A stretch of DNA of 52,285 nt, from assembly GCA_023251915.1 (NCBI GenBank), contig JAHEXW010000012.1:1-52285 (forward strand), written 5' to 3'. A program made the position numbers and the translations under genes. The stretch's first letter is position 1, and each line of letters begins with the position of its first letter. Below are positions 28,919 through 52,285 of the stretch, one piece after another. Below the pieces are notes generated by a model. The model worked only from the letters and a program-made list of their open reading frames with translations, was not told where the DNA came from and ran no database searches. Origin of the DNA: Actinomycetes bacterium (GTDB lineage: Bacteria; Actinomycetota; JAHEXW01).

Positions 28919-28927
28919 GTTGCTGCT

Positions 28928-28978
28928 TGGGAGGTTGCTTCGTCGGCAGAAACCGCCTCCTCGCAATGACGTAGGGCG
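28928..28978 (-). repeat. Dispersed hairpin element, copy A1
   Basis: Plus strand TGGGAGGTTGCTTCG-TCGGCAGAAACCGCCTC-CTCGCAATGACGTAGGGCG. Confidence 0.9.
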
Positions 28979-29010
28979 TCTATGATAGAGCTGTGAGAGG
29001 TTTTTGCTCT

Positions 29011-29061
29011 TGGGAGGTTGCTTCGTCGGCAGAAACCGCCTCCTCGCAATGACGTAGAGCG
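29011..29061 (-). repeat. Dispersed hairpin element, copy A2
   Basis: TGGGAGGTTGCTTCGTCGGCAGAAACCGCCTCCTCGCAATGACGTAGAGCG, nearly identical to A1. Confidence 0.92.
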
Positions 29062-29086
29062 TGCGCGTCGAGCGTCTGTTTTATGG

Positions 29087-29368
29087 TTATGGTTTAAGTT
29101 CCCGCCATGTAGGATTATGTTCGTTTATCAGCGCGTCTTTTCTGCCTCGCGAACCGCCCTTAAGCTGTTTCTCGCGCGCAATGGCCTTTTCGACATATTC
29201 AAAACTCTCAAAATATACAAGCTTGGTGATGTTGTATCTAGATGTGTGCGAGAAAGCTTCTGTGTGCTTGTGCTGATATACGCGCTCTCTGAGGTTGTTG
29301 GTGACACCGATATAGAGAGCGTTGTTATATTTGTTGGCTAAAATATAGACATAATGCGTTCGCGGCAT
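29087..29368 (-). CDS. Small GIY-YIG endonuclease domain protein
   Basis: HYVYILANKYNNALYIGVTNNLRERVYQHK...AIAREKQLKG; flanked on both sides by inverted copies of the dispersed repeat. Confidence 0.9.
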   Translation of the reverse strand: MPRTHYVYILANKYNNALYIGVTNNLRERVYQHKHTEAFSHTSRYNITKLVYFESFEYVEKAIAREKQLKGGSRGRKDALINEHNPTWRELKP

Positions 29369-29408
29369 AGTTAATTAATATCACAACGAGCATAAAACCG
29401 TGCGTAAA

Positions 29409-29461
29409 CGCTCTACGTCATTGCGAGACGCTCACGAAGTGAGTGCCGAAGCAACCTCCCA
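29409..29461 (+). repeat. Dispersed hairpin element, copy B1
   Basis: CGCTCTACGTCATTGCGAG-ACGCTCACGAAGTGAGTGC-CGAAGCAACCTCCCA. Confidence 0.93.
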
Positions 29462-29491
29462 GAACCAAAAACAAAGGCCAAGAAACGAGAA

Positions 29492-29549
29492 CGCTCTACG
29501 TCATTGCGAGGACTCCGAATGATTGTTCGGAGGACGAAGCAACCTCCCA
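29492..29549 (+). repeat. Dispersed hairpin element, copy B2
   Basis: CGCTCTACGTCATTGCGAG-GACTCCGAATGATTGTTCGGAGGA-CGAAGCAACCTCCCA; 7-bp CTCCGAA/TTCGGAG stem. Confidence 0.93.
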
Positions 29550-29570
29550 AGAACAGAAACCTATCGTAAA

Positions 29571-29623
29571 CGCTCTACGTCATTGCGAGGCGCCCGCGAA
29601 GTGAGCGCCGAAGCAACTCACCC
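29571..29623 (+). repeat. Dispersed hairpin element, copy B3 (diverged 3' module)
   Basis: CGCTCTACGTCATTGCGAG-GCGCCCGCGAAGTGAGCGC-CGAAGCAACTCACCC. Confidence 0.88.
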
Positions 29624-29664
29624 TTGCAACCCTCAATCCAGGGTGCTACACTATCTTTCCACCA

Positions 29665-29678
29665 CGAACACTTGTTCG
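29665..29678 (+). promoter_or_regulatory. LexA/SOS box upstream of the dinB operon
   Basis: CGAACACTTGTTCG, CGAAC/GTTCG arms perfectly symmetrical. Confidence 0.82.
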
Positions 29679-29696
29679 TATTAACGAGGTTAAAAC

Positions 29697-40638: not shown

Positions 40639-41288
40639 CAGTCTTTAATGTCGGCGGGAGGCTCGGTGTCCTCAGGTGCGGCGTCTTCCGTCGAAGCAAC
40701 CTCCGCCGAAGCAACCTCCGACTCGGAACGCTCTACGTCATTGCGAGCCTCCTGTTCTTCAGGAGCCGAAGCAACCTCCCCCGAAGCAACCTCCGACGAA
40801 GCAACCTCCCCCGAAGCAACCTCCCCCGAAGCAACCTCCGCCGCCGCGATGTCCTCAACCGGAGCTTCCGCCACTTCATCCAAACCTAAGCGCTTACGTT
40901 CGCTGTCAGAGTGAGCGATATCCTCGCTGGCAGGAATGCCGCCCTCAACAAACATCTCTTTGACGCGGGCTTTCTTGCCGACCCGCTCGCGCAGGTAATA
41001 CAGCTTGGCGCGGCGTACCGTTCCACGCGTTTTGATCTCGATCTTGGCCAGCATAGGGCTGTGCGTCGGAAACGTACGCTCCGTGCCTACGCCGAAACTT
41101 ATTTTGCGGACAGTAAACGTTTCCTGCAACCCGCTGCCTTGCCGTTTGATCACTGTGCCTTGGAATACCTGGATGCGCTCGCGCTCCCCCTCGACAACCC
41201 TGACGTGGATCTTAACCGTATCGCCAGCCTTGAAATCAGGAATGTTCTTGCGCAGATATTCACTCTCAAATGCCTCGATCTTACCCAT
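40638..41288 (-). CDS. rplS: 50S ribosomal protein L19 with a roughly 100-aa C-terminal extension
   Basis: Core [35 protein letters not shown]...[20 protein letters not shown]; tail [19 protein letters not shown]... Confidence 0.94.
40693..40839 (-). repeat. 15-bp coding tandem repeat (GAGGTTGCTTCGNNN = EVASx) interrupted by one dispersed element
   Basis: GAAGCAACCTCC on the plus strand at 40693, 40708, 40768, 40783, 40798, 40813, 40828; 15-bp phase kept across a 60-bp gap. Confidence 0.95.
40729..40780 (+). repeat. Dispersed hairpin element, copy C, inside rplS
   Basis: CGCTCTACGTCATTGCGAG-CCTCCTGTTCTTCAGGAGC-CGAAGCAACCTCCC; CTCCTG/CAGGAG stem. Confidence 0.95.
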
Positions 41289-52143: not shown

Positions 52144-52252
52144 AAGCCCAGCGGCCGGACTTCAGCAAACCGCCCTATTTCAAGCCGTTCATAATTACAG
52201 TTCAAGACCAGACCCTCTCCCCTTCGGTTAGGCACGAGCCACGCCGCGGGAA

Positions 52253-52285
52253 CGCTCTACGTCATTGCGAGGCGCTCACGAAGTG
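52253..52285 (+). repeat. Dispersed hairpin element, copy D, cut by the window edge
   Basis: CGCTCTACGTCATTGCGAG-GCGCTCACGAAGTG... Confidence 0.88.

Follow-up and report, generated by a model that had tools for sequence, protein, structure and literature searches.

The window, that is, the whole stretch of DNA that was analysed (52,285 nucleotides), belongs to a genome of 1.4 Mb assembled in 39 contigs. Its region 28926–29680 holds a small nuclease gene with copies of one repeated element, here named CGTC-tagged REP from the comparison given below, on both sides. The features are as follows:

28926..28979, minus strand, CGTC-tagged REP copy 1, with its CGTC end facing the ORF
29009..29062, minus strand, CGTC-tagged REP copy 2, 98% identical to copy 1
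29087..29368, minus strand, 93-amino acid single-domain GIY-YIG nuclease of subfamily A, assigned by Pfam match and conserved motif residues
29407..29460, plus strand, CGTC-tagged REP copy 3
29490..29548, plus strand, CGTC-tagged REP copy 4, with the longest hairpin of the five
29569..29617, plus strand, CGTC-tagged REP copy 5, where the block alignable with the sister genome G018 begins
40727..40780, plus strand, further REP copy in the same window, away from the nuclease locus
52251..52271, plus strand, 5′ module of one more REP copy, at the end of the contig

The unit formed by the nuclease gene and the REPs is bordered by DUF72 on the left and by DUF6504-dinB on the right. A LexA/SOS-box-like sequence, CGAACACTTGTTCG, was found at 29660–29680, upstream of DUF6504-dinB, and this LexA-box-like site is kept in the sister genome G018 as CGAACACATGTTCG. 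The arrangement described in the sequence-only reading, with two minus-strand and three plus-strand element copies around a 93-amino acid ORF, was recovered with coordinates agreeing within 1–2 nt. The same reading had named the ORF a GIY-YIG nuclease and placed it between DUF72 and the dinB operon, both in agreement with the present results (Pfam PF01541, E = 2e-15).

Alignment of 50 sequences of the nuclease showed Y8, Y19, E66 and N85 to be invariant and R29 and H33 to be conserved in at least 90%. The GIY/YIG tyrosines and the Arg, His, Glu and Asn residues of the GIY-YIG superfamily were thus all present in addition to the Pfam match, and we take these residues to play the same active-site roles as in other GIY-YIG enzymes. 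UPF0213 was the closest match to the predicted fold (pLDDT 90), followed by the nuclease domain of Slx1, a nuclease that cuts branched DNA, and by UvrC. In size, fold and motif residues the protein resembles the small stand-alone GIY-YIG proteins of the UPF0213 type (PDB 1zg2 and 1ywl), and no second domain, including a separate DNA-binding domain, was found in its 93 residues. Ten pairs of relatives gave pN values of 0.08–0.26 against pS values of 0.58–0.92, which indicate strong purifying selection on the gene. A phage origin was rejected, as a phage collection of 50,697 records contained no match to the nuclease. Relatives are carried by some viral contigs, and REPs lie on either side in 11 out of 30; the flanks in these contigs are possibly host DNA.

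The genome-wide search for the element that had been suggested along with the first description of the locus gave 42 occurrences of the full gapped pattern GTCATTGCGAG-N6..36-GAAGCAA and none in the reversed control; the 12-mer CGTCATTGCGAG occurred 50 times (control 0). The aligned copies have a total length of ~55 nt and the layout [AT]CGCNNTACGTCATTGCGAG, variable inner hairpin and CGAAGCAACCTCCC, with ATTGC pairing with GCAA(C/T) around the inner hairpin. The inner arms differ wholesale between copies with the pairing kept, and in 34 distinct elements the arms paired better with their own partners than with swapped ones (0 of 2000 permutations as good). This covariation of the inner arms supports the hairpin, folding energies of single DNA copies being unremarkable (z 0 to −2) and uninformative in this respect.

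The CGTC-tagged REP superfamily (Di Nocera 2013, PMC3733652) includes dRS3 of Neisseria and RPE-4 and RPE-6 of Rickettsia. The element shares with it the tag (CGTC or TGTC, unpaired) followed by a stem starting with AT (CGTCATTGCGAG... in 42 copies) and the short end tail, and it is likewise palindromic, as judged from the covariation, multicopy and arranged in opposed pairs (7 close ones). Unlike the four families listed in the superfamily, it does not have an uninterrupted 8–9 bp stem with a 4–5 nt loop right after the tag; it has a conserved [AT]CGCNNTA before the tag, an inner variable hairpin, and longer conserved 5′ and 3′ modules. By tag and layout the element fits the CGTC-tagged REP superfamily, as a member outside the four listed families.

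All seven close opposed REP pairs of this genome (gap 12–56 bp) have their CGTC ends inward, the same as the pair around the nuclease gene. In genome G254, both the REP pairs that were read and the flanks of the nuclease face mostly outward. Since the nuclease flanks share the orientation of the ordinary pairs of their genome, the gene occupies the spacer position of an ordinary REP pair. The earlier statement on the 5′ modules, all said to face the ORF, is valid for the five copies at this locus and for the ordinary repeat pairs of the genome, but not for most relatives, in which the GTC end is outward; the inward orientation is a local form and no rule of the system.

Tandem arrays were observed in several places. 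In the window at about 40680–40830, the REP 3′ module is repeated in tandem as 15-bp copies (CCGAAGCAACCTCC..) next to a full REP at 40737, and the end of contig C4 and the start of contig C27 of the same genome (L119 and L136) break inside a tandem array with a ~230-bp unit that contains a REP pair. As contigs break in REP arrays and the window itself ends in a REP (52251), REP arrays probably break the assembly. Arrays of REP 5′ modules in tandem, with a spacing of 25–27 bp or 61/86 bp, were seen in G015 and G043 (L146–L148), two genomes that lack the nuclease.

Two groups of small GIY-YIG genes emerged when 296 genomes from the same phylum (the phylum sample) were searched, a close one (subfamily A, 13 genomes, 14 loci read) and a remoter one (subfamily B, 11 loci). 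REPs of the CGTC type were present on both sides of the gene at 13 of the 14 subfamily A loci, in contrast to none of the 11 sampled members of subfamily B (Fisher p = 3e-6). The flanking repeats vary among the subfamily A loci (TCATTGCGAG, TCATTCTGAG, TCATTCCGAG, TCGTTGCGAG and others), and the association is thus not that of a single inherited locus.

When 84,980 species genomes were scanned with the subfamily A alignment, 80 loci from 20 named phyla were obtained, picked by protein similarity only. Within 300 bp of the nuclease gene, a REP tag was located on the upstream side in 72 loci, on the downstream side in 68 and on both in 60, and a quarter of the 80 loci had no recognised REP tag on one or both sides; at a distance of 600–4500 bp, tags on both sides were found at most once in 50–66 loci. 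The top enriched 8-mers near the gene were pieces of REPs, TCATTGCG being near the gene in 49 loci and far from it in 2. In many loci entire REP pairs were found on each side, forming direct repeats of ~80–270 bp. In four taxa listed for CGTC repeats in PMC3733652 (Neisseria, N. aromaticivorans, A. lipoferum and S. meliloti) the nuclease is present and flanked by REP-like palindromes, which in Neisseria include repeats of the dRS3 type.

REPs are mostly intergenic and possible RNA elements (PMC3733652), in line with an explanation in which they flank the gene merely as fellow intergenic DNA, the hairpins being terminators or mRNA stabilisers. This explanation is hardly credible and strongly disfavoured by the presence of tags on both sides in only 7 of 416 other ORFs on the same contigs (2 of 111 short ORFs) and in none of the 11 other small GIY-YIG genes, as well as by REPs on both sides of the nuclease gene that match its lineage in class. 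Chance, an intergenic bias and a general association with small GIY-YIG genes were ruled out by the same ORF (7/416) and GIY-YIG (0/11) controls.

The match between REP class and nuclease lineage was assessed after REP stems had been put into four classes by short-motif rules, with five labels assigned by eye. Along the nuclease tree there are 14 changes of stem class, compared with 29.2 for shuffled labels (0 of 200 as low), and 28 changes of host phylum; these class assignments indicate that the REP stem class tracks the nuclease tree and not the host phylum. The type of the flanks extends to the whole genome, with 25 of 26 GCG-flanked genomes being GCG-dominant genome-wide against 1 of 11 CTG/CCG-flanked ones (p = 3e-7, for genomes reached through loci). 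Genome G301 carries two nucleases, L036 and L050, that differ in flank class, and it contains 119 and 345 copies of the two REP classes; in the complete genome G141, which has a single nuclease, 407 tags of the class found at the flanks of this nuclease were counted (control 0). Clear exceptions to the match between flank class and genome class are G303 and G329.

In the phylum sample the nuclease was found in 7 of the 11 REP-rich genomes and in 6 of the 285 others (p = 1.4e-8, relatedness ignored). Of the two findings that the sequence-only reading considered contrary to a link between repeats and nuclease, a missing correlation across genomes is excluded (p ~1e-8), and repeat-rich relatives that do not have a close homologue of the nuclease occur in four cases (G015, G125, G147 and G270), but not in the other seven of the 11 REP-rich genomes. 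In view of these four genomes the tie is strong and not obligate, and the simplest account of them would be loss of the nuclease after REP expansion. RAYT genes and GTAG REPs are likewise not obligately tied (Di Nocera 2013, PMC3733652).

The sister genome G018, whose DinB is 96% identical, has one REP before DUF6504-dinB, with both the nuclease and DUF72 absent, and only 9 exact tags versus 50 in the genome of study; three further REP sites of the latter are empty in G018. Exact insertion ends were not definable from this comparison because the intergenic DNA is too diverged. An empty DUF72-dinB junction, the proposed counterpart of the locus in relatives, was found in G002, a genome of the same order in which DUF72, DUF6504 and dinB lie next to each other with ~100 bp, the nuclease being absent.

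Presence and absence of the unit were also observed elsewhere. In Azospirillum lipoferum 4B the nuclease gene, with REP pairs on both sides, lies between sufB and sufC, and the sufB-sufC junction of three Azospirillum relatives (~95% identity) is ~90–130 bp long and nuclease-free. In Sphingobium plasmids the fnrL-regulator junction was found both with and without the nuclease. Nuclease-free sites in relatives are accordingly known at three unrelated junctions (DUF72-DUF6504-dinB, sufB-sufC and fnrL-regulator), and no clean target-site duplication was found at the Azospirillum and Sphingobium sites. Azospirillum sp. B510 (L192) has a different G+C-rich palindrome between sufB and sufC, at the site of the A. 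lipoferum 4B nuclease unit. The nuclease-free allele of the Sphingobium TomTYG64 plasmid (L195) contains a single perfect palindrome that is GTC-tagged at either end and looks as if it were a REP-gene-REP unit with the inner part deleted, or its precursor.

Another possibility is that the protein serves the host in genome maintenance by resolving REP cruciforms or recombination intermediates, with selection or chance keeping it near the REPs. Slx1, a branched-DNA nuclease, as the nearest characterised fold and the strong purifying selection would both agree with such a role. However, the patchy presence, the scattered unrelated positions, the presence or absence at single junctions and the flanks of its own REP class are unlike a housekeeping gene, which need not lie between its own substrates, and we regard this role as quite unlikely.

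The main rival, possible though doubtful, is a homing-type selfish nuclease that cuts and lands in REPs of its class, with something else spreading the REPs; it shares the class specificity with the explanation preferred here. The gene resembles GIY-YIG homing endonucleases (I-TevI type, seg genes) as a selfish-looking GIY-YIG gene at varied insertion places, and differs from them in having no intron, extra DNA-binding domain or phage context and in being bracketed by multicopy hairpins. Landing in REPs would be consistent with the entire REP pairs that flank the nuclease as direct repeats in many loci, with the existence of REP-rich genomes that do not have the nuclease, and with REPs being reported as targets of some IS elements (PMC1525189). 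It explains less well that the genome-wide REP class follows the nuclease class; moreover, the nuclease is usually single-copy whereas REPs number up to hundreds, and CGTC repeats have no other known dedicated enzyme (PMC3733652).

The locus is rather more probably a nuclease-plus-repeat unit, in which the GIY-YIG nuclease acts on its own CGTC REP class and drives its spread. A RAYT/REP-like system of a nuclease and non-autonomous repeats, as had been proposed from the window by itself, is supported by the adjacency across genomes, the lineage-specific pairing of nuclease and REPs, the genome-wide repeat type with the high copy number of the matching class, the purifying selection, and the presence or absence of the unit at junctions, including the nuclease-free ones; for the spreading we infer REP binding, cutting, the position of the cut, and cutting as the cause of copying. 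The nuclease would recognise REPs of its own class when replication or transcription exposes them as hairpins or cruciforms, and its cut would fall close to or at the conserved CGTC end. For a single-domain enzyme with a Slx1-like fold, cleavage that depends on the structure of a hairpin or cruciform would be fitting. Other intergenic sites may then receive, by repair or replication, copies of REPs, of REP pairs or of the entire REP-gene-REP unit; REPs that occur alone or in pairs would be the non-autonomous members and the copy with the gene the autonomous member.

The similarity to RAYT (TnpA_REP) genes and GTAG REPs (REPtrons, REPINs) consists in an enzyme gene that is present in one copy and has its own type of REP at its flanks (here on both sides in 60 of the 80 loci, with the class following the enzyme tree), in REPs that far outnumber the enzyme, in repeat-specific enzyme lineages, and in some genomes with REPs and no enzyme. 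The two systems differ in the enzyme, which here is a GIY-YIG nuclease by Pfam and by its fold (nearest UPF0213 and Slx1) and not an HUH/Y1 tyrosine transposase of the IS200/IS605 type, and in the REPs, which are of the CGTC superfamily here and of the GTAG superfamily in the case of RAYT. No earlier report joining a GIY-YIG nuclease to REP, RAYT, REPIN or CGTC repeats was found in the open-access papers that were searched.

CGTC REPs (dRS3, rickettsial palindromic elements, the very common TCATTGCGAG and TCATTCTGAG repeats) are found across bacteria. In the 2013 survey (PMC3733652) they "seem lacking a dedicated transposase", and no RAYT or IS200 gene was flanked by CGTC units; as the missing enzyme behind their spread, the nuclease is the best candidate so far. 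If this is true, CGTC REPs would gain a mechanism, an enzyme-plus-REP system would have been invented independently a second time, and a small nuclease family annotated merely as "GIY-YIG nuclease family protein" would obtain a function. The arguments appear evenly balanced for the wider proposal of a hitherto unrecognised class of mobile system, in which most bacterial phyla have single-domain GIY-YIG nucleases as the dedicated mobilisers of the CGTC REP superfamily, acting by cleavage of hairpins and copying by the host instead of by a transposase. The question of the cognate nuclease is directly testable in laboratory strains.

Two individual loci showed additional features. On plasmid p1 of Planktothrix agardhii (L187), the nuclease gene and its REPs have an MmeI-like restriction enzyme on one side and the DISARM gene drmA on the other. 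In genome G141 (L019, contig 1, 565427–568690), the nuclease ORF continues in frame into a glutamyl-tRNA synthetase-like protein.
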